This document shows positions 5,241-20,194 of a DNA stretch of 64,000 nucleotides, piece by piece. Position 1 is the stretch's first letter. Every line of letters starts with the position of its first letter. The notes under the pieces were generated by a model. It had not been told where the DNA came from. It worked only from the letters and a program-made list of their open reading frames with translations, and made no database searches. Source of the DNA: Clostridiales bacterium (GTDB taxonomy: Bacteria > Bacillota > Clostridia > Christensenellales > Aristaeellaceae); the NCBI GenBank assembly GCA_012729115.1, contig JAAYDR010000059.1, forward strand, positions 19,556-83,555. The letters are read 5' to 3'. The position numbers and the translations under genes are program-made.

Positions 5241-5276
5241 CAGAGCCGTTCCATAATGGATACGGTTCTGATTTTT
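5241..5276 (+). terminator. Rho-independent terminator after the CDF gene
   Basis: CAGAGCCGT pairs with ACGGTTCTG and CCAT with ATGG around one base, followed by TTTTTG. It ends only 20 bases before the LCP start codon. Confidence 0.6.
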
Positions 5277-5295
5277 GATGTGGGGGGAACACCGC

Positions 5296-6333
5296 GTGAA
5301 AGCTGGAAAGTGGATAAAAACCCTGGGTGGGTGCGCCCTGGCGCTGATCTTTTTGCTGGGCAGCGGGGCGCCGGCGTCTGCAACGTCCATACCCTGGGCC
5401 ATCTTTGGCACTCCCACGGGTAAGCCCTGGGAGCTTCCCCTGCCAACCCCCCGGCCTACACCGGCCCCCTCCCCAGAGATAATGGACGACGAAACACCGC
5501 TGCCCACGGATACTCCCCAGCCGGAGGAAACCCTGGCCATCCCCACCCAGGAGGAAGGGGTGCTGTCTCTGCTGCTCATCGGCGTGGACGCCCATGGCAG
5601 CGACAACCATGGCCGCAGTGACACGATGATCCTGGCCCGGCTGAACACGAACACCGGGGAGATCAAGCTGGTTTCCTTTCTTCGGGATCTGTATGTGAAG
5701 ATCCCCGGCAAGGGAAAGACCCGCTTGAACGCGGCCTATTACTACGGCGGGGCTGAGCTGCTGAAGAAAACCCTGAGCAGCAATTTCGCAGTCAACGTGG
5801 ACGGCGCGGTTGCCGTGGATTTTCGCTCCATGGTGGCGGTGATCGATCAGATTGGCGGCGTTCCGGTGACTTTCAATGAGAAGGAGCGGCTTGCGCTGAA
5901 CAAGCTGCTGAAGGAATACAACCGGGATTATGGTTTTGATCGCAACGACGGGCTTGTGGAAAAGGCCGGAGAGCAGGTACTCACCGGAAAGCAGGCCCTG
6001 TGCTTCAGCCGCATCCGCAAGCTGGACAGTGATTTTGTGCGCACCGACCGGCAACGGCGGGTGCTGGAAGGCATGCTGAGCAAGATCCGTACCCTGAGCC
6101 TGCCAAAACTGCTGGGGGTGGCTGCGAAGGTCTGGGGCAGCCTGGAGACCGACCTGAAGCTCTCAGACGCCATGGCGCTGCTGCCCCTGCTGAGGAGCGA
6201 CAAGGAGCTGACCCTTTCCGGCATGCAGATTCCCACTGATAACGGATACCAGAATGACGTGATCAACGGGATGATGGTGCTTGTGCCCAACTTGAAAAAG
6301 AACACCCAGGCAATACGGAACTTCTTTCAGTAG
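5296..6333 (+). CDS. LytR-CpsA-Psr (LCP) family cell-wall glycopolymer ligase
   Basis: A 345-residue protein with an N-terminal export signal or anchor (about residues 1-32) and a Pro/Thr-rich linker to about residue 85. The LCP domain follows. Its signatures are visible: VDAHGSDNHGRSDTMILARL, then FLRDLYVKIPGKGKTRLNAAY with the conserved Arg and Asp, and RIRKLDSDFVRTDRQRRVL near residue 245. LCP enzymes transfer teichoic acids, capsules or secondary wall polymers from undecaprenyl-pyrophosphate to peptidoglycan on the outer membrane face. I chose the GTG at 5296 because GGGGGGAA precedes it and the signal peptide starts there. Upstream in-frame TTG/ATG codons overlap the terminator tail. The 3' end overlaps the convergent gene by 7 bases. 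Confidence 0.9.
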   Translation: MKAGKWIKTLGGCALALIFLLGSGAPASATSIPWAIFGTPTGKPWELPLPTPRPTPAPSPEIMDDETPLPTDTPQPEETLAIPTQEEGVLSLLLIGVDAHGSDNHGRSDTMILARLNTNTGEIKLVSFLRDLYVKIPGKGKTRLNAAYYYGGAELLKKTLSSNFAVNVDGAVAVDFRSMVAVIDQIGGVPVTFNEKERLALNKLLKEYNRDYGFDRNDGLVEKAGEQVLTGKQALCFSRIRKLDSDFVRTDRQRRVLEGMLSKIRTLSLPKLLGVAAKVWGSLETDLKLSDAMALLPLLRSDKELTLSGMQIPTDNGYQNDVINGMMVLVPNLKKNTQAIRNFFQ

Positions 6334-10010: not shown

Positions 10011-10352
10011 CTATTTCCAGGTGAGGGTGAGCACGATCCCCGCGATGATCAGGGCATTGCCGATGAGCTTGCGGCGGGTGATCTTCTCCCCCAAAAAGAG
10101 ATGAGACAGAAACAGGACATATAGATATCCGGACGCCTCCAGCACCCCCGCCACGGACAGGTCCAGCTCGCCCAGGGCCAGGATGTTGAGCAGCATGCAG
10201 CCAAAGAACAGGGCATAGGCGAGGATGGCGGGAAGGTTCAGGTAGAAGCGCAGGCCCTTGTGGGCAGGATTGCTGGCCGCCTTTTTGAGGATCACCTGGG
10301 AGAGGGCGGCCACCAGGGGGGTGATGAGGTAAATAAGCACACTAACGGTCAT
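10011..10352 (-). CDS. SMR/EamA-type half-transporter, subunit B
   Basis: A 113-residue protein with four membrane helices in the small multidrug resistance/DMT fold. Its first helix ends in [10 protein letters not shown], and its last pair includes [23 protein letters not shown], the usual E-K-I-T loop between helices 3 and 4. It overlaps the upstream SMR gene by 11 bases, so the two are coupled. Paired, non-identical SMR proteins next to a DPM1/ArnC-like glycosyltransferase recall ArnE/ArnF, which flip undecaprenyl-phosphate-aminoarabinose. I infer a lipid-linked-sugar flippase here rather than a drug pump. Confidence 0.7.
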
Positions 10353-10746
10353 GATCCGTCACCACGAGCACCACTCCCGCCAGCACCACCAGGATGCCGA
10401 CGGCCTTTCCCCAGGTTATCTCCTCGCCAAAAAACAGAAGACCAAACAGGATGGTCCACAGGGTGCATACCGCCCGGTTGCTGTAGGCAAAGGAGAGGTC
10501 TACCCGCCGGAGGATGAGCTGCCATAGCAAAGTATAGACCAAAAGGGCTAAAAACTCCAGCCCTACGAACACAAGGGTGGTTTCCCACAGGCCCGCCAGG
10601 CGGTACAGCCCCGCGTACTTGGCAAAGACGCTGGCCAGGCTGTACAGTAGCAGCGTCAGATGGAGAAAGAGATAGGAACGGATGTCCGGCCGGGGAGATT
10701 CGATCCGGTGGGAGGGTTGAAACCTGCCGGATTTTCTGGGTGTCAC
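10342..10746 (-). CDS. SMR/EamA-type half-transporter, subunit A
   Basis: A 134-residue protein with a polar 25-residue N-terminal extension and four membrane helices. Its LLFFGEEITWGKAVGILVVLAG stretch matches the E-x-I-T loop of SMR/DMT proteins, and its first helix carries LASVFAKYAGL. It overlaps the second SMR gene by 11 bases and starts 13 bases after the GNAT gene stop. The two subunits are clearly different in sequence, as expected for an obligate heterodimer. The proposed role is flipping the undecaprenyl-phosphate-sugar made by the nearby GT2, by analogy with ArnEF. This is inference from context. Confidence 0.7.
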   Translation of the reverse strand: MTPRKSGRFQPSHRIESPRPDIRSYLFLHLTLLLYSLASVFAKYAGLYRLAGLWETTLVFVGLEFLALLVYTLLWQLILRRVDLSFAYSNRAVCTLWTILFGLLFFGEEITWGKAVGILVVLAGVVLVVTDHDR

Positions 10747-10759
10747 AGGCTCGCCTCCC

Positions 10760-11497
10760 TCATCCTACATGCTTCACATAGGTGTACAGGGTGCTGGAGA
10801 GGGTCGCTCCGGCATTCATGTAGACCCGCAGCACTTTCCAGTTGTTGCTGACAATTGTGCTGGAAAGCTGCTTGCAATCCCAGGCAAAGCAGGTATCCAG
10901 GGTCTTTTTGTGGAGCAGGGCCCCCATGCCCCGGTCGCGGGACTCGTCATACAGCCCCATGAGCACCGGGTCCACGGTATCCTCATCCACCCGGCTGACC
11001 ACAAAAAAACCAAAGGGCCGTGCACCCTGCAAAACCTCATACAACTTTCCGCCGGAGGCAATGATCCTGTCCACCCAGTTGGCAAAGCGGTTACCGGACT
11101 GGGCATGGGAAAAGAAAGGGTCGATGGACACCCGGTCCGAGGTAAAAATTCCATCCCGAATCAAGCGGCCAATCCGTTCCCGATCATCGGGCAAGGTCCG
11201 TTCCGCTACGGTCAGCCCCCGATCAAAGCGGGCGATGGTGGCGGGCATGGCATAGTCTCCCCGCTTGATCGTTACATGAAACACGGTTTCAACGAAGGTA
11301 TATCCCAGGGATGGCAAGCCGAAAAGCAACTGGGAGCAGTTCACCGGGGTTTTGACCACCAGATACCGGGCCCCCTTTTGGATGCAGTCCTGCTCCACCT
11401 GGGACAGATCCTGGAGGGTATCCCGGGGCTCCAGCAGGAGTTCACAGGTGTCAATGCCCAGGTTTTCAAGTTCCCAGGTGGCGTGTATAGTCTTCAT
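10760..11497 (-). CDS. GNAT-family N-acyltransferase (WecD-like)
   Basis: A 245-residue protein with a GNAT fold in its second half. The acyl-CoA pyrophosphate-binding loop is SRDRGMGALLHKK around residues 187-199. The following NNWKVLRVYMNAGA segment is typical of sugar-amine acetyltransferases such as WecD. The first 100 residues form a separate region, also as in WecD. It overlaps the glycosyltransferase gene by 32 bases, which implies tight coupling. A likely reaction is acylation of an amino group on a nucleotide-linked or lipid-linked sugar, with the donor possibly coming from the acyl-ACP module of this operon. The substrate is not known. Confidence 0.7.
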   Translation of the reverse strand: MKTIHATWELENLGIDTCELLLEPRDTLQDLSQVEQDCIQKGARYLVVKTPVNCSQLLFGLPSLGYTFVETVFHVTIKRGDYAMPATIARFDRGLTVAERTLPDDRERIGRLIRDGIFTSDRVSIDPFFSHAQSGNRFANWVDRIIASGGKLYEVLQGARPFGFFVVSRVDEDTVDPVLMGLYDESRDRGMGALLHKKTLDTCFAWDCKQLSSTIVSNNWKVLRVYMNAGATLSSTLYTYVKHVG

Positions 11498-12449
11498 GGC
11501 GACCCTCCTTCCCTCTGGGGTCGATGATGCTGCGCACCACGTACTGGGGGCTGCGGTTGATACTCAGATAGATGCGGCCCACATACTCCCCGACAATGCC
11601 GATCAGCGCGATAATGACGCCGCCCAGGGTGAGCATCACTGCCAGCGTGCTGGCCCAGCCTGCCTGAATGGATGGATCGATGAGCTTTCGAATGATGGTG
11701 ACCAGAGCAAACAGGAAACCAAAGATCGCGGTGAACCAGCCGATGTAATTGGCCAGGCGGAGAGGCTTGATGGAAAAAGCGGTTACGCCGTTGGACCACA
11801 GCGAGATGAGCTTGCGCAGGGTATAACCGCTTTCTCCCTGCAGCCGGGCTTTGTGGGTAACAGGCACATTGGTGCAGGTGCTGACGCTTTGAAACAGCAG
11901 TCCCGTAATGTAGGGGAAGGGGTTTGGATAGCGCAGGGCGCTGTCCACCACAAAGCGCTGGCAGGCAAAGTAGCTGTTGGGGGTGATGTCCTTGGGCTGG
12001 CCAAAGAAGAAATGGTTGCAAGCGGCATTGAAGCGGCTGCCCAGGTTGCGGAAGAGGCTTTGCTTGCGCTGGGCATACTGGGCGAAGACAATGTCATAGC
12101 CCTCCCGAACCTTGTCGATGAGCTTGAAGCATTCCAGGGCAGGGGTCTGGCCGTCGTCGTCCAGACAGATGATGATGTCGCCCCGCACCTGCCCAAAGCC
12201 CGCCATCAGGGCGCTGTGCTGGCCGAAGTTGCGGGACAGGTTGACAAAGACCAGCCGGGGATCGGCAGCGCACAAGGCGGCGATGGCGCTTGCCGTATCG
12301 TCCGGGCTGCCGTCGTTGACCAGAATGATTTCATAATCAAACTCCGCCAGGCGGGGGTCCACCGTGGCATGGATTTCCGCCACCACCTGACCGATGGTGT
12401 TCTGGGAGCGATAACAGGGGATCACGAAGGAGAGAAGGGTCTTGTCCAT
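11466..12449 (-). CDS. DPM1/ArnC/GtrB-like undecaprenyl-phosphate glycosyltransferase (GT2)
   Basis: A 327-residue GT2 enzyme. It has the GT-A nucleotide-sugar motifs VNDGSPDDT (about residues 44-52) and LDDDGQTP (about 95-102, metal-binding DDD). GESGYTLRKLISLW follows near residue 210, characteristic of polyprenyl-phosphate transferases. Two membrane helices come next (about 230-255 and 265-290). Such enzymes move a sugar from UDP/GDP/TDP to undecaprenyl-phosphate on the inner membrane face. Together with the SMR pair and the GT-C-like proteins this gives synthesis, flipping and transfer of a lipid-linked monosaccharide. The start ATG at 12449 lies 37 bases after the LuxC-like gene. Confidence 0.9.
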   Translation of the reverse strand: MDKTLLSFVIPCYRSQNTIGQVVAEIHATVDPRLAEFDYEIILVNDGSPDDTASAIAALCAADPRLVFVNLSRNFGQHSALMAGFGQVRGDIIICLDDDGQTPALECFKLIDKVREGYDIVFAQYAQRKQSLFRNLGSRFNAACNHFFFGQPKDITPNSYFACQRFVVDSALRYPNPFPYITGLLFQSVSTCTNVPVTHKARLQGESGYTLRKLISLWSNGVTAFSIKPLRLANYIGWFTAIFGFLFALVTIIRKLIDPSIQAGWASTLAVMLTLGGVIIALIGIVGEYVGRIYLSINRSPQYVVRSIIDPRGKEGRHEDYTRHLGT

Positions 12450-12486
12450 GGGGGAATCACCTCAAATGAGTATAGGCCGGGATGCG

Positions 12487-13719
12487 TTACCAGGTTTCCA
12501 CCTGGCGGGATAGGATGTTGATCAGGTCGTATCCGTCCCAGGCAAGGGAAAAGTCCAGGCTATGGCCCAGCGGCACAATGCGGTCGATGCCCTTGAGCCC
12601 ATGGGACAGGATCAGTTGCCGGAGTTCCTGAGGGTCAATGCCCAGATACGTCACCGTCTGAAACTTCGGGCTTACGAGGGCCAGGAGAGCGCTCAGGTCG
12701 GTGTCGATGTATTCCACAAAAAGGCCTCCGGGGCAGCGGATGCTTTCCACCTGAGGGCTGAGTTCCTTCACACCGATGCGGGCAATCAGGTTGTCCCCGC
12801 CGGCCGGGCGGTAGACCTCCCCAAGCCGGAGGGCAGCCTCATAGAAAGCTGTGAGCTTGTCCACAGACACCACGGGCTGGAGCGTATAGCGAGGCGCGGC
12901 GTAGCTATGGACAGCCTTCCAGAAGCGGTCCTGGGCAGCACGGGTCTTGTGAAGGGAGGGAGTATCCTCATTCTCCGCCAGCCAGTACAAAAGCCTGGGA
13001 GAGGTGCAGGCATTCTGGTCCAGAAGATAAGTGTCGTTGTAAAAGCCCTGTGCTGCGGCCTGAAGCTGCTTGTCCTCCAGGGCAAGCACCGCCGAGGCTC
13101 GCAGAACCAATAGGGAATAGCGGTCCGGAAAGGTGATGTCAAAGGCCCGGGGAGACAGGGGGATCCGGCGGATATGGGTCACGGTTTCGTCCCCGCCCCA
13201 GATGATCCTTACATCGCAGAGGGTGCTGAGTTCCTGGGTGATCTCCTGCCGCTCCCGGGGATAGGAAATCACATTCACATAGGGCCGAAGGGTTTGAAAG
13301 GAGGAAGCAAGCAGGCCCTCCATCACCTGGCAGACAAGGCGGGTCTGGGGGAAGTCCCGGCTTGGGGCCTTCACCAGGGAAGCATTGCCCGCCAGCAGAG
13401 CGGCAACCAGGGAATAAGCAAAGTTGAGGGGAACATTTCCTGGGGCGATGTGGAAGACCAGCCCCCGTCCAACGCGGTTGCCTTTGCTCCAGGTTTCGTA
13501 ATCCCGGCGGTGTTTTTCCAGATTGCCCCTGCGGCAGAAAAAGGCCAGAGCGGTCAGGTCCGGATACTCCCGGAGCGCTTTGTCTTCAAGCAGTGCGGCG
13601 GAAAGAGCCTCTAAAAACGCCATCACGGGAGGGGCAAAGGGCGTCAGGGGAGGAGCTGCCGCGGCCAGGGTGAAATCTCCCGCGCCGCACAGCCAGGCGC
13701 AGCTCTCATGTGTGCTCAT
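12487..13719 (-). CDS. LuxC-like acyl-CoA/acyl-protein reductase
   Basis: A 410-residue member of the LuxC (PF05893) aldehyde-dehydrogenase-like family. FHIAPGNVPLNFAYSLVAALL (about residues 87-107) and NASLVKAPSRDFPQTRL mark the nucleotide-binding half. DQNACTSPRLL near residue 235 contains the catalytic cysteine. In luminous bacteria LuxC reduces acyl groups, delivered by LuxE, to aldehydes with NADPH. No luciferase or LuxD is present, so the product must serve another pathway. It overlaps the LuxE-like gene by 14 bases, which fits the LuxC-LuxE complex. The N-terminus is about 60 residues shorter than Vibrio LuxC. Confidence 0.85.
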   Translation of the reverse strand: MSTHESCAWLCGAGDFTLAAAAPPLTPFAPPVMAFLEALSAALLEDKALREYPDLTALAFFCRRGNLEKHRRDYETWSKGNRVGRGLVFHIAPGNVPLNFAYSLVAALLAGNASLVKAPSRDFPQTRLVCQVMEGLLASSFQTLRPYVNVISYPRERQEITQELSTLCDVRIIWGGDETVTHIRRIPLSPRAFDITFPDRYSLLVLRASAVLALEDKQLQAAAQGFYNDTYLLDQNACTSPRLLYWLAENEDTPSLHKTRAAQDRFWKAVHSYAAPRYTLQPVVSVDKLTAFYEAALRLGEVYRPAGGDNLIARIGVKELSPQVESIRCPGGLFVEYIDTDLSALLALVSPKFQTVTYLGIDPQELRQLILSHGLKGIDRIVPLGHSLDFSLAWDGYDLINILSRQVETW

Positions 13720-14785
13720 AGGTATCGCTGCACCCCCTTACCTCCGCCCGGGCGACCCGCCCGAACACGGTGAAATACTTGCCCTTGCGGCCGCAGGGGC
13801 AGTCGTCCTCCCCCAGAAGGGAGCCTTCGTCCTCGGTGAGGAGGATGTGCCCGGGATAGCTGCGGGGCAGGAGGCTGCTGACCTGGATCAGACCACGCTG
13901 GCCCATGGGAGCAACCGAGAAATCCCAGGGGTCCCGGATGGTCACATCGGACCAGACCGGGGCATGAAGATGCCCCTGTTCGCATTCCAGATAGATGGTA
14001 CCGGTCTGCTCCACCATACCATAGTAATCATGGATTTGGGTGATACCGCAGACCTCGCCCAAGGCGGCCTTGAACCCCTGGGGGGACACAGCCTGGGAGG
14101 TCAGCTTTTTCCAGCCGCCCCCATGGATGAGGATGCCGGCGGATAAATCCGGCTTTTCTCCAAGACGCAGAAGCTCTTGATAGAAATGCTGCCAGATGAT
14201 AAACGTGAAGCCAAACAGGAAGATGGGACTCCCCCGATGCCTGGAGAGAAAGGCCTTCAGGCCCTCCACATCCAGGGCCATGGACTCATCCAGGGCGAAA
14301 AACCTGTCCCTGGCAAAGATGCTGAAGCCCAGGATGCCCGCCCCGCGAGCGGAGAATTGGGTCCGGCTGGACACCAGGGCGCTGCTGTCCAGGATGATCA
14401 TGGGCAGGCGGCTGTTCCCCAGAAAGCTGGCCACGATCTTTGACAGAGCCTTGCTCTGGGCTGTGCTGGTTTCCCGGTCCAGGTAAATACGGCTGACTTG
14501 CTGACCCGTCGTGCCGCTGCTGGTCATGGTCCTGTAGAGCTGCTCCTGGGGCACGCTTTTCAGGGAAAACTCCTTGAAAAGCCGCACAGGCAGAAAGGGG
14601 ATCTCCTCATGGCTTTGGATCCGGTCCAGATCCGTTCCCCAGGCGGAGAGCATCCGGGCATACTCCGGGCAGCCGGCCGCATGATGGCGGCTTAAGGCCA
14701 GGAGTTCCCGGGTGAGAAGAGCCTGCTTGGCTTCCCTGTCCAGACCATAGGGAGCCAGGGCCAGCAGGGCGTCCATGTCAGTCAT
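13706..14785 (-). CDS. LuxE-like acyl-protein synthetase/acyl-AMP ligase
   Basis: A 359-residue protein of the LuxE family (PF04443). The ATP-binding loop TMTSSGTTGQQVSRIYLD is near residue 95. The C-terminal third carries DYYGMVEQTGTIYLECEQGH and a Cys pair in GEDDCPCGRKGKYFTVFGR, a typical LuxE ending. LuxE adenylates a fatty acid, transfers it to its own cysteine and hands it to LuxC. I chose the ATG at 14785, which overlaps the preceding ligase stop by 8 bases. A frame reaching 14890 lies entirely inside that ligase. A second adenylating enzyme sits in the same operon, so LuxE may act on the ACP-bound or released product. Confidence 0.85.
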   Translation of the reverse strand: MTDMDALLALAPYGLDREAKQALLTRELLALSRHHAAGCPEYARMLSAWGTDLDRIQSHEEIPFLPVRLFKEFSLKSVPQEQLYRTMTSSGTTGQQVSRIYLDRETSTAQSKALSKIVASFLGNSRLPMIILDSSALVSSRTQFSARGAGILGFSIFARDRFFALDESMALDVEGLKAFLSRHRGSPIFLFGFTFIIWQHFYQELLRLGEKPDLSAGILIHGGGWKKLTSQAVSPQGFKAALGEVCGITQIHDYYGMVEQTGTIYLECEQGHLHAPVWSDVTIRDPWDFSVAPMGQRGLIQVSSLLPRSYPGHILLTEDEGSLLGEDDCPCGRKGKYFTVFGRVARAEVRGCSDTYEHT

Positions 14786-16184
14786 AGTACTGCTCCAGCT
14801 CCTTATAGAGCGTTTTGCCCGCATCGTTGTGGGGGATTTCCGGGATGACCTTGGCATGGAAGGCCACCGGGTTAAGGCCGGTTTTTTCAATCAGGTAGCG
14901 GCGCAATTCCGGCAGGAGATCCTCCCTGGTGGCAAAGAGGTAGAGATGGTCGTCCTTGCCTCCGCAGACCAGATCCACATCAGGAAAGGCGGCTTTCAGC
15001 AGCCCTTCGGCTTCGTCCAGGTTCACCCGGTTCCCGAAGATCTTCAGAAAGCGCTTCTGACGGCCTACGATGGTGAAATAGCCGTCGGCGTCCATTTTGG
15101 CCATGTCCCCGGTATCCAGCACGCCGCCCCGCTCATCCCCCAGGACCAAATCGGCGGCGCTTTGGGCATATCCCAAAGTGACGTTGTCCCCATGGTAGCG
15201 CAGCTCGCCGGTGATTTCCGGCTGGGTAATCACTGTTCCATCCCCGTCCAGGAGTTCAAAGCGCCCTCCTGGAATGGCGATGCCTATGGTACCAGCCTTC
15301 TCCAGGCTCCGTGTCCAGGGCAGGTAGGACATGCGGGCAGTGGCCTCGCACTGGCCGTACATGACGTAAAACTTCCGCCCGGTTTCCAGGCACCAGCGGG
15401 CCAGCTTCTCATGGAGAGCAAGGGACAGTTTGCCCCCGGCCTGGGTCATGACCTTAAGACTGGGCAAATCCATGCGGGTAAAGCGCATCCGGTCCAGCAT
15501 TTCGTAGGTGTAGGGAACGCCGCCGAAGCTGGTTGCCTCCCGGGCCTTGAAAAAGCTCCAGAAGTCCTTCTGGGCAATGCCTTTATCCGTAAGCAGGATG
15601 GCAGCCCCCACGTCCAGATGGCTGTTGATGATACTCAGCCCATAGGTGTAGTGCATGGGCAGGGTGGTGATGGGCCGCTCCCCTGCGGTCAGCTCCAGGT
15701 ATTCCACAATGCTGTCTGTGTTGGAGCGGATGTTGCGGTAACTCTGCCGCACAAACTTGGGGCTGCCTGTGGAACCGCTTGTGGTGAGCAGGAGCGCCAG
15801 ATCCGCATGCAGCTGTGTTCTGTCCTCAAAGGGCGTTGCCAGAAGCTGGTAGCCAAAACGTTTGTACACCGGCATGCACTTTTTTACGCGCATGCCCTCC
15901 GGCACCCACAGAAACTTGGGAGCATAGGCCTGGTACAGGGCTTCCAGTGTTTCCGGATTTGTGTCTGCCCCCAGCATGGCAGGAACAATGTTCCCTTCCA
16001 GAAAGGAGGCATACCCCAGGAAGCTGCCCAGGGTATTCTGGCAGACCTGCAGGACCAGGCAGCGGCTCCCGACAGCCTGGCACAGAGCGCGGCCCTCCCG
16101 GGCCAGCTCTGCGTAGGAAAGGCGCTGACCAAATTCGTCGACAACGGCAACCTGGCTGCCGAAACGATCAAATGTCCACATCAT
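14778..16184 (-). CDS. AMP-forming acyl-ACP/acyl-CoA ligase
   Basis: A 468-residue ANL-superfamily enzyme. The phosphate loop is LLTTSGSTGSPKFVRQSYRN around residues 125-144. The adenine-binding region includes MYGQCEATARMSYLP near 285. The hinge is DTGDMAKMDADGYFTIVGR near 360. The catalytic lysine is likely in NDAGKTLYKEL close to the C-terminus. It adenylates a carboxylic acid and loads it on CoA or, more likely here, on the ACP encoded just upstream. The start ATG at 16184 overlaps the ACP stop region by 17 bases. It is shorter than long-chain acyl-CoA ligases and resembles DltA/peptide-synthetase adenylation proteins in size. The substrate is unknown. Confidence 0.8.
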   Translation of the reverse strand: MMWTFDRFGSQVAVVDEFGQRLSYAELAREGRALCQAVGSRCLVLQVCQNTLGSFLGYASFLEGNIVPAMLGADTNPETLEALYQAYAPKFLWVPEGMRVKKCMPVYKRFGYQLLATPFEDRTQLHADLALLLTTSGSTGSPKFVRQSYRNIRSNTDSIVEYLELTAGERPITTLPMHYTYGLSIINSHLDVGAAILLTDKGIAQKDFWSFFKAREATSFGGVPYTYEMLDRMRFTRMDLPSLKVMTQAGGKLSLALHEKLARWCLETGRKFYVMYGQCEATARMSYLPWTRSLEKAGTIGIAIPGGRFELLDGDGTVITQPEITGELRYHGDNVTLGYAQSAADLVLGDERGGVLDTGDMAKMDADGYFTIVGRQKRFLKIFGNRVNLDEAEGLLKAAFPDVDLVCGGKDDHLYLFATREDLLPELRRYLIEKTGLNPVAFHAKVIPEIPHNDAGKTLYKELEQYYD

Positions 16185-16404
16185 ACTTCCGCAGAATCTC
16201 CTTGCCCTTTTCAAAAGAACTCAAATCGATGATATCATCCATCTCCATCATGATATCAAAGGCATCCTCCAGCCTGGCCACCAAAGTCATATGGCCTACG
16301 CTGTCCCAGGAAGGGCTTTCGCCGTAGACCAGAGAAGGTACCTGGTCCGGCGCCACTTCCAGGGCGGCTGCAAAGGCGTCTACGTATTTATTCAGATTGC
16401 TCAT
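16168..16404 (-). CDS. Acyl carrier protein
   Basis: A 78-residue acidic helical protein with the phosphopantetheine attachment site in WDSVGHM (Ser near residue 35), the classical D-S-x-G-H pattern. It is a dedicated ACP, separate from fatty-acid-synthase AcpP, lying between a FabG-like reductase and an AMP ligase. It should carry the acyl group through activation and reduction. The ATG at 16404 follows AAGGAGGAAATCCC. The frame could extend to 16749 through the reductase gene in another phase, but that part is a shadow. It overlaps the ligase gene by 17 bases. Confidence 0.9.
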   Translation of the reverse strand: MSNLNKYVDAFAAALEVAPDQVPSLVYGESPSWDSVGHMTLVARLEDAFDIMMEMDDIIDLSSFEKGKEILRKYDVDI

Positions 16405-16435
16405 GGGATTTCCTCCTTGCTGTTGATAAGCGCTG

Positions 16436-17179
16436 CTACAGGATGCCGCCGTCCACCCGCCAGGTCTGGCCGGTAACGTAACTGGCTCTGTCGCTGGCCA
16501 GAAATGCCGCCACCTGGGCAATTTCCATGGGATCGGCCGGGCGTCCCAGGAGAATCCTGGCCAGGGTTTCCTGGCGAACCTTTTGGGAAAGACCGCTGAC
16601 CAGATCCGTATCTGTGTAACCGGGGGCAAGGGCGTTGACCCGGATGCCCTGGCCCGCATACTCCCGCGCCAGCTTTTGGGTGGCGGCGATGACAGCTGCC
16701 TTGCTGGCCGAGTAGTCGATCCGGCTGTCCCCATCCAGGCCAGCCACACTGGCGATGTTTACCACCGCTCCCCGGCTGCGGCGGGCCATCAGGCGGGTCG
16801 CAAAGCGGGTGACCTCCAGAAGGGCGAAGAAATTGACATCAAAGATGCTGCGCATTTCCGCTTCGGATGTCATCTGGAAGAGCCTGTCCTCTCCCATGAT
16901 TCCCGCGTTGTTCACCAGAATGTCCAAAGGCTGCTTGTCCGCCAGCACCTGGGCAAAGGCCGCCTTGCGTGCGGCCTCGTTGGTGAGTTCGGTATACACA
17001 GGCCGCACCCAGACCCCGTGCCGCTGGGACAGAGCTTGGCAATCTTCCATAAAGCTCGCGCTTTCCTTGCGCGCAAAGGCCCATACATTGGCGCCCTCCC
17101 GGGCGAAAGCCGTCATCAGGGCATGGCCGATGCCCCGGGCGCATCCGGTAATGAGTGCGTTCTTTCCTTCCAGCAACAT
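16436..17179 (-). CDS. FabG-like short-chain dehydrogenase/reductase
   Basis: A 247-residue classical SDR. The NAD(P) motif is ITGCARGIGHAL (about residues 9-20), NNAGIMGED is near 87, and the catalytic triad uses Ser in NIASVAG and Tyr/Lys in DYSASKAA near 148. The C-terminal TGQTWRVDGGIL is typical of FabG. It would reduce a 3-oxoacyl-ACP or an aldehyde. Its place next to the ACP suggests it works on that carrier. The ATG at 17179 follows AAGGAGTAACGCG and lies 4 bases after the preceding stop. An upstream start at 17200 would overlap that gene. Confidence 0.85.
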   Translation of the reverse strand: MLLEGKNALITGCARGIGHALMTAFAREGANVWAFARKESASFMEDCQALSQRHGVWVRPVYTELTNEAARKAAFAQVLADKQPLDILVNNAGIMGEDRLFQMTSEAEMRSIFDVNFFALLEVTRFATRLMARRSRGAVVNIASVAGLDGDSRIDYSASKAAVIAATQKLAREYAGQGIRVNALAPGYTDTDLVSGLSQKVRQETLARILLGRPADPMEIAQVAAFLASDRASYVTGQTWRVDGGIL

Positions 17180-17183
17180 CGCG

Positions 17184-18656
17184 TTACTCCTTTGGGACAA
17201 GGGTTACGGACTCCTTGCGGTAATACTCCGCATAGAGGCTTAGCACATAATCGATGGCCTGGCTGTCTGCCGCGTCGCCCATAAACACCTTGGGAACCGG
17301 GTCCACGGGGCGGAGGGCAACGGTTGTCTGGGCGGGGTCGTTCATGGCTGCATCCCGCGTATCCATTTGCCGGTCATAGGCCTGGGCTTCCCCCTTGAGG
17401 AGAGAGAAAACGGCCGTACCGGCGGTGGAGTTCTGAGGGCCATAGCTTTCCCGGCCCTGGGGGCGATAGGCTGCCATGCCCACCACCAGGAGCACGGCGG
17501 CTAAAGCCAGCACAGGAAGGGAAACCCGGGGCGAGGGCTCCGGCTGGATGCCGGTGTTCCTTGACAGGAGAAAACCTGCCCAGTAGGTGGCAAGGCCGCA
17601 GACCATCAGGCAATAGGAGTAGTAATAGGTGTTCATCACCCGGCCATCCCCCAGAAAGTTGCCTGTATAGAGGGTGGGGGCAAGCTGGGCGCAGAACAGG
17701 CATAGGGCAGCCAGGGTGACCCACAGGGGATGGGCAAAGGCTGCGCTGTTCCGGCGCAGGGTGGGCAGCAGGAGCCAGGTTAAAATCAGAGCTACCGCCA
17801 ACAGGGGCAGGGAGAACCAATGGCCCATGAGGGCCAGGCCAAAATAGAGGGCCTGGGCCACGGCCATGGGGGCGCTCAGACCGCCCTGCAGAGTCTTGGC
17901 CCGGACGGCATTGCCGGGGGCGGATGCGCTGAAGGCCAGGCACAGGAGGAGGACCAGGGTCAGCATAGCAAAGGCAAGGCGCTTTGGATGCCGCCGTACA
18001 AAAGCCAGGAGGGTAAAGGCGAGGGCCAGGAGCAGCGCCACAAGAACCATGGAATATTTGCCTCCGCCCAGGAGCACGGCGAGTACCAGAAGCAAAGCAA
18101 AGAGAGCGGCGGACTTGCCCCTGGTTTTTAAGCGGGCATAGGCCAGCCAGCATCCGGCGGTCAACAGCAGCAGGCTCCACAGAAAGGTATAAGCCACGCC
18201 CCCATTGAACCAGAAGAAGGCCTCCGATGGGCTGGGGGCCAGCTGCACCATCAAAAAGGCCAGCCCGCAAAAGGCGATGATAACCGTGGGGGCATCCGCG
18301 TGCAGGGTTTTCCCCAGCACCTGCCACAGGAAGAAGCCCAGGGCCAACAGCAGCCCCGTAACCAGCACAAAGGTACCGATCCAGTAATGATCTTCTCCCC
18401 AGACACCGGGCTGGAGACCGCTGAGAAAAGTGGTGGTATAGGTACCCTCCCAGGTATTGCGGGTACCCAGGGTGTTCTCCCAGGCGGCGCGCAGGACGGC
18501 CATGTGGCTGCCGGTGTTCCGCCAGGCAGCGTGGGGCTTGATGGAAAAACCAAAATCGTCATAAAAGGGATGGTTGAAAAAGGAGAGGCCATAGACGGGG
18601 AGCAGGCTTAACAGCAGCAAAATCACGCAGAGAAAGGCCAGGATTTTTTTGCTCAC
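17184..18656 (-). CDS. DUF6056-type polytopic membrane protein, GT-C-like (copy 2)
   Basis: A 490-residue protein with about eleven hydrophobic helices. The first extracytoplasmic loop has FFNHPFYDDFGFS (residues 25-37), and another loop has SEAFFWFNGGVAYTFLWSLL near residue 135. Both match DUF6056 family proteins. An acidic Asp-Asp pair in the first loop after helix 1 is the layout of GT-C glycosyltransferases that use lipid-linked sugars outside the membrane. It is a clear paralogue of the gene before it and overlaps it by 4 bases (ATGA). I infer transfer of the flipped undecaprenyl-linked sugar to a surface acceptor. No activity is demonstrated for the family as far as I know. Confidence 0.7.
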   Translation of the reverse strand: MSKKILAFLCVILLLLSLLPVYGLSFFNHPFYDDFGFSIKPHAAWRNTGSHMAVLRAAWENTLGTRNTWEGTYTTTFLSGLQPGVWGEDHYWIGTFVLVTGLLLALGFFLWQVLGKTLHADAPTVIIAFCGLAFLMVQLAPSPSEAFFWFNGGVAYTFLWSLLLLTAGCWLAYARLKTRGKSAALFALLLVLAVLLGGGKYSMVLVALLLALAFTLLAFVRRHPKRLAFAMLTLVLLLCLAFSASAPGNAVRAKTLQGGLSAPMAVAQALYFGLALMGHWFSLPLLAVALILTWLLLPTLRRNSAAFAHPLWVTLAALCLFCAQLAPTLYTGNFLGDGRVMNTYYYSYCLMVCGLATYWAGFLLSRNTGIQPEPSPRVSLPVLALAAVLLVVGMAAYRPQGRESYGPQNSTAGTAVFSLLKGEAQAYDRQMDTRDAAMNDPAQTTVALRPVDPVPKVFMGDAADSQAIDYVLSLYAEYYRKESVTLVPKE

Positions 18657-20194
18657 GGGGCAGCCTCCTCTCCCGCCAGGTGGATGGCGGTTTTTCCATA
18701 GTACTTCTGAAGCATAAGCCGCACGGTTTCCCCTGCGTCCAGGGTCAGCTGGTCCTTCATAAACAGTTCCGGAACCACCGAAAGGGGGCTCAGGGTAATC
18801 TCGGGCTGGGAGGCATCGTTCAGCAGGACCTCTCTGGCCGTCATCTCCCGGTCATACTGCCGGGCCTCCCCGGTTACAATGGACAGGGCCGCGCTCATCC
18901 CCGCCAGGTTGGGCAGGCCGTAGGTTTTGTCCGCGGGGCGTTTGTAGCCAAGGCAACCCACCACCAGCACGAGGGCAGAAGCCAGAACCAGACCCTGCTT
19001 GACGGGTGCGGGGAAGGAGGCCGGCAGGTGGGCGCGCCCGGCTTTCTCCAGCCGGCGCAGGGCAAAGCCCGTCAGATAAAAGGCATACAGAAGCCACAGC
19101 ACCACAAAGCTTAGCCAGTAGGTATCCACAATGCGGCCCCCGCCGATAAACACGCCGCCATAGAGGGGCGGGACCAGCTGGGTGCAGAACAGGCCCAGGC
19201 CGCCCAGAAGCCATAACCAGGGATGGGAGAAGGAGAAGGGGCTGGCCTTGGCGGCGGTATATAAGAAGGGGAGGACCAGGGCCGTCACCCCCAGCAGGGG
19301 AAGTGACAGGAAGCTGCCTGCCAGGGCCGTGCCATAGTACAGGGCCTGGGCAACGGCTTTCACAGGGGATATGCTGCTGGCAATCACACCGGCCCGGACC
19401 GCATTCCCCGGCGCCGACATGTTGTACAGGAAGCAGCCCAGGAAAACCAGCGTGAACATAAGAAGCAGCGGAGCCTTTGGCCACCTGCGGACAAAGGCCC
19501 AGGCGGTGAGCCCCAGGTACAGGCACAGGCCAAACAACCCGCCCCCATAGCTTCCGCCGCCCAGCAGCACCATGAGAATCAGCAGGGCGAGAGTGAGGAA
19601 GATAGGCGCTCCGCGGGAGGCGGTGCGGAGCAGTCGGGCACACAGCCCCAGGCTTAGCACCAGCAGGGAATAGATGAAAGTGTTGCCGATGCCTCCGTTA
19701 AACCAGAAGAAGGCTTCATCCGGATCGGGCATGAGCTGCACCAGCAGGGTGAGGGTAAGGCTGATCAATATCACCAGGGAAGGCCTGTCAAGACCCAGCA
19801 GATCCCCAAAAAGAACCTTCAGAAAAAAGCCGAAGCAGAGCACAAAGGCTGTGAGGAGCACAAAGGTGGTGAGGAAGTACAGGCTTTCCGAAAAAACTCC
19901 GGGCTGGAGATTGCTTAAAATGGTGCCGGTATAGGTTCCCTGCCAGGAGGCACGGATGCTGGCCGCGCTTTTTAGAGCAGCCTGAAGCACCGCTTGCAGG
20001 CTGCGGGTCTCACTCCAGGCGGCATGTACGTCTGCGGAGAACTGGTAATCGTCATAGTAGGGGTGATTGTACAAGGACAGGACATACAGCGGCAGGGTGC
20101 TTGCCGCCAGCAGCAGGGCGCACAACCAGGCAAGCAGCCTTTTGGAAGGCAGGGGAAGGCTGCGCTTTTTGCGAGCGGTGGGGGAATGATCCAT
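18653..20194 (-). CDS. DUF6056-type polytopic membrane protein, GT-C-like (copy 1)
   Basis: A 513-residue paralogue of the next gene with the same signatures: LYNHPYYDDYQFSADVHAAW near residues 43-62 and DEAFFWFNGGIGNTFIYSLL near 165. Both share the long middle loop and about eleven helices. The conserved YDD after the first helix resembles the catalytic acidic pair of GT-C enzymes. It is the first gene of the 10-kb operon. I prefer the ATG at 20194, where AAGGAG lies 11 bases upstream. A GTG at 20206 sits directly on that ribosome site. The two copies may act on different acceptors or donors. Confidence 0.7.
   Translation of the reverse strand: MDHSPTARKKRSLPLPSKRLLAWLCALLLAASTLPLYVLSLYNHPYYDDYQFSADVHAAWSETRSLQAVLQAALKSAASIRASWQGTYTGTILSNLQPGVFSESLYFLTTFVLLTAFVLCFGFFLKVLFGDLLGLDRPSLVILISLTLTLLVQLMPDPDEAFFWFNGGIGNTFIYSLLVLSLGLCARLLRTASRGAPIFLTLALLILMVLLGGGSYGGGLFGLCLYLGLTAWAFVRRWPKAPLLLMFTLVFLGCFLYNMSAPGNAVRAGVIASSISPVKAVAQALYYGTALAGSFLSLPLLGVTALVLPFLYTAAKASPFSFSHPWLWLLGGLGLFCTQLVPPLYGGVFIGGGRIVDTYWLSFVVLWLLYAFYLTGFALRRLEKAGRAHLPASFPAPVKQGLVLASALVLVVGCLGYKRPADKTYGLPNLAGMSAALSIVTGEARQYDREMTAREVLLNDASQPEITLSPLSVVPELFMKDQLTLDAGETVRLMLQKYYGKTAIHLAGEEAAP

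Follow-up and report, generated by a model that had tools for sequence, protein, structure and literature searches.

A Clostridia operon joins a LuxE/LuxC acyl-reducing cassette to genes for lipid-linked sugar export and may build an N-hydroxyacylated amino sugar

The window analysed here, 64,000 nucleotides of a Clostridiales bacterium of the Aristaeellaceae (GenBank assembly GCA_012729115.1, contig JAAYDR010000059.1, positions 19,556 to 83,555), contains eleven minus-strand genes that run from 20194 down to 10011 with intergenic spacings of -32 to +37 bases (Table 1). A tRNA-Arg gene lies immediately upstream on the opposite strand, and trpS immediately downstream on the same strand. A preliminary description, made from the sequence alone, had read these genes as one closely packed operon linking a LuxC/LuxE acyl-reducing module to the synthesis of a lipid-linked sugar. 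The packing and the strand are as it said, and Pfam and NCBIfam searches agree with most of its gene identities, the GNAT being placed through weak WecD-like matches and its predicted fold and DUFa through its kinship with DUFb. A predicted -10/-35 pair at 20284-20256 (minus) matches at only 9/12 positions, and the promoter and terminator scans (6 against a shuffle mean of 3.2, and 16 against 11.0) were discarded as little over shuffled sequence.

Table 1. The eleven genes of the operon in order of transcription, with predicted roles and best profile or structure matches (SDR, short-chain dehydrogenase/reductase; ACP, acyl carrier protein).
Gene	Start	End	Strand	Assignment and matches
DUFa	18653	20194	-	DUF6056-like membrane protein, predicted GT-C glycosyltransferase; YDDY motif past first helix
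DUFb	17184	18656	-	DUF6056 membrane protein, predicted GT-C glycosyltransferase; PF19528 36.3 bits (cut-off 27)
SDR	16436	17179	-	FabG-like reductase, predicted aldehyde to alcohol; PF13561 191.5 bits; YSASK catalytic motif
ACP	16168	16404	-	78 aa; PF00550 19.3 bits, just short of cut-off 20.8
AMP ligase	14778	16184	-	Predicted loader of a small polar acid onto ACP; PF00501 119 bits
LuxE	13706	14785	-	Acyl-protein synthetase; PF04443 163.9 bits; 7xc6 LuxE E 8.2e-17
LuxC	12487	13719	-	Acyl reductase; PF05893 99.6 bits; 7xc6 LuxC E 2.9e-6
GT2	11466	12449	-	ArnC/PgfS-like, predicted undecaprenyl-phosphate sugar transferase; solved ArnC 9hwj E 1.9e-47
GNAT	10760	11497	-	Predicted N-acyltransferase of a 4-amino sugar nucleotide; WecD-like by predicted fold
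SMR1	10342	10746	-	EamA-type, ArnF-like half of predicted sugar-lipid flippase; PF00892 (EamA) 25.8 bits, under cut-off 28.2; NCBIfam ArnF E 1.1e-5
SMR2	10011	10352	-	EamA-type, ArnE-like half of predicted sugar-lipid flippase; PF00892 37.8 bits (cut-off 28.2); NCBIfam ArnE E 4.3e-6

The SDR, AMP ligase, LuxE, LuxC and GT2 all exceed their Pfam cut-offs. LuxE and LuxC are encoded by two separate, overlapping genes, and each has a solved relative in the chain of its own name in 7xc6. The cysteine in the C-terminal RGCSDT of LuxE is kept in 20/20 aligned copies, the DQNAC cysteine of LuxC in 18/18, and the serine of the DSV site of the ACP in 18/18 (the window copy counted); we take these to be the catalytic or carrier residues of the three proteins. 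At the upstream end, DUFa and DUFb share 43% identity (alignment A2), DUFa by itself reaching 13.5 bits against Pfam DUF6056 (PF19528), under the cut-off of 27. The predicted fold of DUFb is GT-C-like; a helical GT-C core and an acidic motif after the first helix, as expected of this superfamily, are present.

The arrangement recurs within the family. Among 308 family genomes, 41 have a LuxC match, of which 23 are strong (at least 73 bits) and about 18 weak (below 45 bits). The profile of the operon's GNAT is found in 17 genomes, 13 of the same genus (window included) and four of a sister genus (g9), and all 17 fall inside the strong-LuxC set, which is the co-occurrence that the preliminary description had proposed as a check. 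The order DUFa-DUFb-SDR-ACP-AMP-LuxE-LuxC-GT2-GNAT is identical in 10 of the other 16, and the joining of acyl-reducing and lipid-linked-sugar genes is borne out; in the remaining six, contig ends interrupt the block or our simple caller of open reading frames miscalled it. That 16 other genomes hold the GNAT with a strong LuxC argues that the array is not due to chance (loci L067, L073, L090, L095 and L132 are the same records as G105, G096, G094, G099 and G108, and were counted once). Only in the genome of the window and in the four g9 genomes does the SMR pair adjoin the nine-gene block; in the remaining 12 same-genus carriers it lies upstream of trpS, remote from the block.

The nature of the sugar is suggested by the GNAT and by a gene elsewhere in the genome. 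The GNAT has no match in Pfam and weak WecD-like ones in NCBIfam (28.5 bits against TIGR02382, WecD, with a cut-off of 195.1). Its AlphaFold2 (AF2) model (pLDDT 87.5) finds as top Foldseek match WecD 2fs5, a TDP-fucosamine acetyltransferase (E 1.6e-13, TM 0.65/0.71, 18% identity). Of three strong DegT genes in the genome, one, on contig C116 and not on the operon contig, is WecE, the transaminase that makes dTDP-4-amino-4,6-dideoxygalactose (dTDP-Fuc4N), with 589.8 bits against the NF008687 cut-off of 375, and dTDP-Fuc4N is the likely acceptor sugar of the GNAT. Another is RfbH-like and accompanied by a CDP-glucose dehydratase; it was ruled out as the aminotransferase of the operon, being found in 2/17 same-genus genomes. 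A DegT gene on contig C8 adjoins nucleotide-sugar-dehydrogenase, Gfo/Idh and hexapeptide-transferase genes, presumably a set of the diacetamido-uronic-acid type.

Within the genus, the operon, the SMR pair and wecE are present or absent together. Across 17 same-genus genomes, operon, SMR1 and WecE are all there in 13/13 and all missing in 4/4, so that in 17/17 the pair and wecE follow the operon. SMR1 taken singly occurs in 13/13 operon-bearing and 0/4 operon-free genomes, and SMR2 stands beside it, upstream of trpS, in all 13. On the far side of the pair recJ is found in 11/12 other operon-bearing loci, and in 4/4 operon-free genomes recJ adjoins trpS with no SMR pair in between, so the absence of the pair does not reflect an assembly gap. 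(recJ and an FAD enzyme, which flank the pair in other genomes, were dismissed as parts of the system, being housekeeping neighbours.) An rpoB tree that covers 15 of these 17 genomes and omits G099 (no match) and G107 (a fragment only) places the operon-free genomes on two branches, and two joint losses are therefore the simplest account. In the family at large, WecE occurs in 16/17 GNAT-profile genomes versus 28/291 others (Fisher p 3e-14, kinship ignored), the single miss being a 60% complete genome, and in 0/6 genomes having a strong LuxC without this GNAT. Control families do not follow the pattern: besides RfbH, RmlB and RmlA are each found in 14/17 same-genus genomes (12/13 operon-bearing, 2/4 operon-free). 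The further controls rpoB and trpS were recovered in 16/17 and 17/17.

From homology and context we propose, giving it about an even chance, that the operon builds an N-hydroxyacylated 4-amino sugar that is exported on undecaprenyl phosphate. LuxE would turn one carboxyl of a small acid into an acyl-AMP and then hold the acyl group on its C-terminal cysteine, and LuxC would take this group onto its own cysteine and reduce it to the aldehyde, which the SDR would convert to an alcohol; starting from malate, the product would be 2,4-dihydroxybutanoate (3-deoxy-tetronate). The AMP ligase would load the remaining carboxyl on the ACP, and the WecD-like GNAT would pass the acyl group to the amino group of Fuc4N supplied by the distant wecE. 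The ArnC-like GT2 would then load undecaprenyl phosphate with the acylated sugar, the SMR pair would flip the lipid-linked sugar, and the two GT-C proteins would join it to a surface acceptor. Observed directly are the gene order, the conserved catalytic residues and the way in which operon, SMR pair and wecE are found or missing together; the folds are predicted models. A LytR-CpsA-Psr family gene (118.1 bits) lies about 4 kb from the operon, at 5275-6333 on the plus strand; enzymes of this family link undecaprenyl-borne polymers to peptidoglycan, and this neighbour is a possible hint of the surface acceptor.

Malate is the most specific and the least secure step of this predicted pathway. 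The top solved relatives of the AMP ligase are oxalyl-CoA synthetase, oxalate-CoA ligase and malonyl-CoA ligase. Beside seven sister cassettes (L043, L054, L070, L084, L086, L116, L124) stand genes of the lactate/malate dehydrogenase (LDH/MDH) family, and 7/7 of them have an Arg where Bacillus lactate dehydrogenase 1ldn has a Gln, a position that we take to set malate versus lactate specificity; the Arg is likewise present in 1y6j, a structure deposited under the name of lactate dehydrogenase. A third indication comes from mass. In the parts of the Aeromonas study used here, a linking sugar of strain AH-3 is reported at 376.14 Da, and a 102 Da moiety is given as of unknown nature (PMC7874193). 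By our calculation, not the authors', a Pse5Ac7Ac residue with one acetyl swapped for dihydroxybutanoyl weighs 376.148, in agreement with that sugar, and none of nine other acyl groups tried fits, although isomers such as O-methylglyceroyl would. Dihydroxybutanoyl adds 102.03, which compares with the 102 Da moiety, again a fit of our own making. The published Aeromonas deletion, as far as those parts describe it, does not single out the cassette (PMC7874193), and for the 403 Da sugar of strain AH-1, as given in part of another study (PMC4691044), we claim no dihydroxybutanoyl fit. Malate is favoured as the acid because of the MDH-type Arg, the 376.14 Da fit and the kinship of the ligase taken together.

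Alternatively, the same surface route could carry a different short acyl group that does not derive from malate, such as 3- or 4-hydroxybutanoyl, glyceroyl or an amino-acyl, which we find rather unlikely. A FabG-like SDR and an ACP would suit 3-hydroxybutanoyl as well, a group that occurs on Pseudomonas viosamine sugars, and the window operon has no MDH gene; however, LuxE and LuxC would be unnecessary for 3-hydroxybutanoyl, and the MDH-like genes of the seven sister cassettes would be left aside.

The preliminary description had also allowed for an alkyl or aldehyde-derived end product. A short hydroxyacyl amide is likelier than either, because of the ligase relatives, the MDH-like genes and the WecD-like fold of the GNAT. 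That a long-chain fatty aldehyde or alcohol is made as in luminous bacteria, giving a surface glycolipid its alkyl or acyl tail, seems to us improbable. The resemblance of LuxE, LuxC, ACP, FabG-like SDR and ligase speaks for it, as do the Aeromonas and Enterobacteriaceae papers, which in the parts used here propose a liposugar (PMC7874193, PMC4875605). Yet the curated luminescence equivalogs are widely missed (LuxE 58.2 against 550 bits, LuxC 45.5 against 750), the top solved relatives of the ligase use C2-C3 diacids, some sister cassettes carry the malate-dehydrogenase-like gene, and Pfam and NCBIfam searches of the eleven operon genes found no luciferase (LuxA/LuxB) or LuxD-type thioesterase. 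On the cut-offs and the ligase kinship we set long-chain "lux" chemistry aside.

The cassette extends well beyond the family. A scan with the LuxE alignment gave at least 569 relatives, of which the best 80, from many phyla, were kept, yielding 58 loci with 5 kb on both sides. In these 58 best-kept loci LuxE has nearby an AMP ligase (57), LuxC (55), ACP (51), SDR (35), transketolase C (25), a DegT aminotransferase (20), an acetolactate-synthase-like thiamine-pyrophosphate (TPP) enzyme (15), NeuB (12) or an LDH/MDH-family gene (6), so the core is a widespread cassette of glycan loci with variable partners. It stands beside GT2, SMR, GNAT-like or DegT genes in other lineages also (L062, L065, L121 and, weakly, L111). 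The transketolase, TPP-enzyme and NeuB counts favour another use of the aldehyde, since all three are of enzyme types that attach carbon to aldehydes or ketones: it could serve for carbon-carbon bonds instead of being reduced, giving chain-extended or branched sugars, with the SDR acting later on a ketol. LuxE-LuxC pairs are moreover repeated, with SDR/transketolase sets, at L064, L065, L079 and L092, as if for iterated acid reduction and chain extension. For the window this use is doubtful indeed: its operon and close relatives have the SDR and none of the three other enzymes, the SDR is the sole partner in 12/58 loci, and NeuB may merely produce a nonulosonic acid that is then decorated.

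Some points weigh against the proposed three-locus pathway. With just two joint losses a sign test cannot reach significance (p 0.5), wecE follows RimK-like ATP-grasp genes in 8/8 other same-genus loci (L210-L217), and in genome G107, which carries the operon and WecE, neither RmlA nor RmlB is matched. That sugar and acyl halves are unrelated processes on one promoter, with wecE following by ancestry only, would suit the two independent absences and the other neighbours of wecE, but is very improbable given the nine-gene order (kept wherever it was neither cut nor miscalled), the recJ-trpS neighbourhood of every operon-free genome, which is cleanly devoid of the SMR pair, and the RfbH control.

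An N-hydroxyacylated amino sugar has a close published parallel in the tetronate system of Vibrio cholerae. According to the parts of the papers used here, RfbN of tetronate synthesis holds a LuxE domain (PMC4772473), and in V. cholerae O1, where the tetronate genes are VC0248-VC0252 of the wbe/rfb region, tetronate is attached as an acyl group to the amine of perosamine, and deletion of wbeL abolishes the O1 antigen (PMC3441752). That system shares with our proposal a LuxE-type protein and a ligase, both serving a short hydroxyacyl that ends up on the nitrogen of a 4-amino-4,6-dideoxy sugar, in V. cholerae as the 3-deoxy-L-glycero-tetronoyl amide. The window differs, in a comparison made by description only, by its separate LuxE and LuxC, its SDR, its ArnC/ArnE-F/GT-C-like export genes and the predicted Fuc4N. 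The other V. cholerae tetronate genes of the RfbKLMNO set we take to be an ACP, an AMP ligase, an alcohol dehydrogenase and an acyltransferase, with RfbN carrying LuxE and LuxC on one chain; by this list ACP, AMP ligase, LuxE and LuxC functions stand together there as they do here.

The same core is in print for flagellin islands. Downstream of pseH, those of Aeromonas group II encode ACP, 3-oxoacyl-ACP reductase, AMP synthetase, LuxE and LuxC (PMC7874193), and Enterobacteriaceae islands have similar gene sets (PMC4875605), again as described in the parts of these papers used here. Islands and window share this series followed by a GT2, which in the islands is beside pseH; the islands, however, add pseudaminic acid intracellularly, whereas the GT2 of the window is of the ArnC-like undecaprenyl-phosphate type and is accompanied by membrane GT-C proteins. 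A paper on Shewanella sfm genes was left unused: in the text available SfmC is a 3-oxoacyl-ACP reductase and LuxC is nowhere named.

On the side of export, the operon resembles the Arn system in its ArnC-homologous GT2, its pair of small EamA proteins, whose nearest families are ArnF and ArnE, and a predicted GT-C-like acceptor enzyme. It has no Ara4N genes, two GT-C candidates and an added acyl cassette, and its proteins stay below the NCBIfam equivalogs (GT2 181.9 against 529 bits for ArnC, and 26.9 against 92 and 25.8 against 99 bits for ArnE and ArnF). The WecE/WecD route to dTDP-Fuc4NAc of enterobacterial common antigen is echoed by the WecE in the genome, which is over its cut-off, and by the fold of the GNAT; the GNAT is nevertheless far below the WecD cut-off, and it is predicted to take its acyl group from the ACP cassette and not from acetyl-CoA. 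Streptococcal Pgf protein glycosylation uses PgfS, PgfM1 and PgfM2, and here too a PgfS-like GT2 (156.8 bits, under the NF047588 cut-off of 500) has two multi-pass membrane partners, to which the window adds the acyl cassette and the flippase pair. The open-licence literature searched has no mention of DUF6056, none of the papers listed describes the whole operon or proves the cassette product, and PMC9290775, in the part used, does not cover acyl groups. The statement in the preliminary description that the product had not been described stands for the operon as a whole within that literature, and falls for its core. What is new here is the linkage of the core with ArnC-, ArnE/F- and GT-C-like genes, the WecD-like fold of the GNAT, and the joint pattern of operon, SMR pair and wecE.

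For LuxC and LuxE outside luminous bacteria the flagellin papers guess at a liposugar, and the V. cholerae pathway was proposed from homology. The present locus ties the cassette to a specific sugar (Fuc4N), an acyltransferase and an export line, supported by the shared distribution of three gene sets, so that the role of the two proteins can be put to the test in vitro using some six soluble proteins. A broader reading is possible, and we advance it tentatively: non-luminous LuxE-LuxC may be a general acid-to-aldehyde engine for surface glycans across many phyla, in which the ACP/ligase/LuxE/LuxC core is combined with swappable users of the aldehyde (SDR, a transketolase pair, the acetolactate-synthase-like TPP enzyme, perhaps NeuB) to make custom hydroxyacyl chains for amino sugars, and which in this Clostridia lineage would have been fused with Arn-like export into a three-locus system displaying N-(2,4-dihydroxybutanoyl)-Fuc4N, a glycan unit so far undescribed in this lineage. 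If the proposed pathway is right, non-glowing "lux" genes would gain a testable job, placing a small hydroxy-acid on a surface sugar, the lineage, which includes gut Clostridia, would gain an undescribed surface sugar, and hundreds of sister loci could be read in its light.

Some further observations concern the cassettes elsewhere. The TPP enzyme and NeuB recur as a pair beside the cassette, often with a FabA-like protein of 159 aa (L070, L083, L085, L096, L103, L115 and others). At L043 (G055) it lies near KAS III, acyltransferase-domain and carboxyltransferase genes, transketolase halves and the malate-dehydrogenase-like gene. A DNA search of 5,426 E. coli genomes with a Chromobacterium cassette found no match, and phages gave a single weak match in one record. 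LuxE relatives were found in 36 plasmid records, every one below 60% identity, and the one plasmid region inspected has ACP, SDR, AMP-binding protein, LuxE and LuxC.

L050 and L041 are cassettes of a different kind. L031 (G105:C47) has a second, very different LuxC-family gene (250.6 bits, open frame of 787 aa), and upstream of it lies a weakly LuxE-like one. The GNAT is followed in four same-genus genomes by a protein of 604-635 aa with 8-10 hydrophobic segments (L036:5346-7187, L038:5831-7645, L044:5629-7488, L046:12426-); the four share 27-47% identity, the three searched have no Pfam match, and they are possibly a third membrane glycosyltransferase. Around wecE, L217 also has N-formylglutamate-amidohydrolase-like and DUF308 genes. 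The window's own genome encodes another DUF6056 protein (L145, G000:C19:2817-4376), followed by a phosphoglucose-isomerase-family gene.

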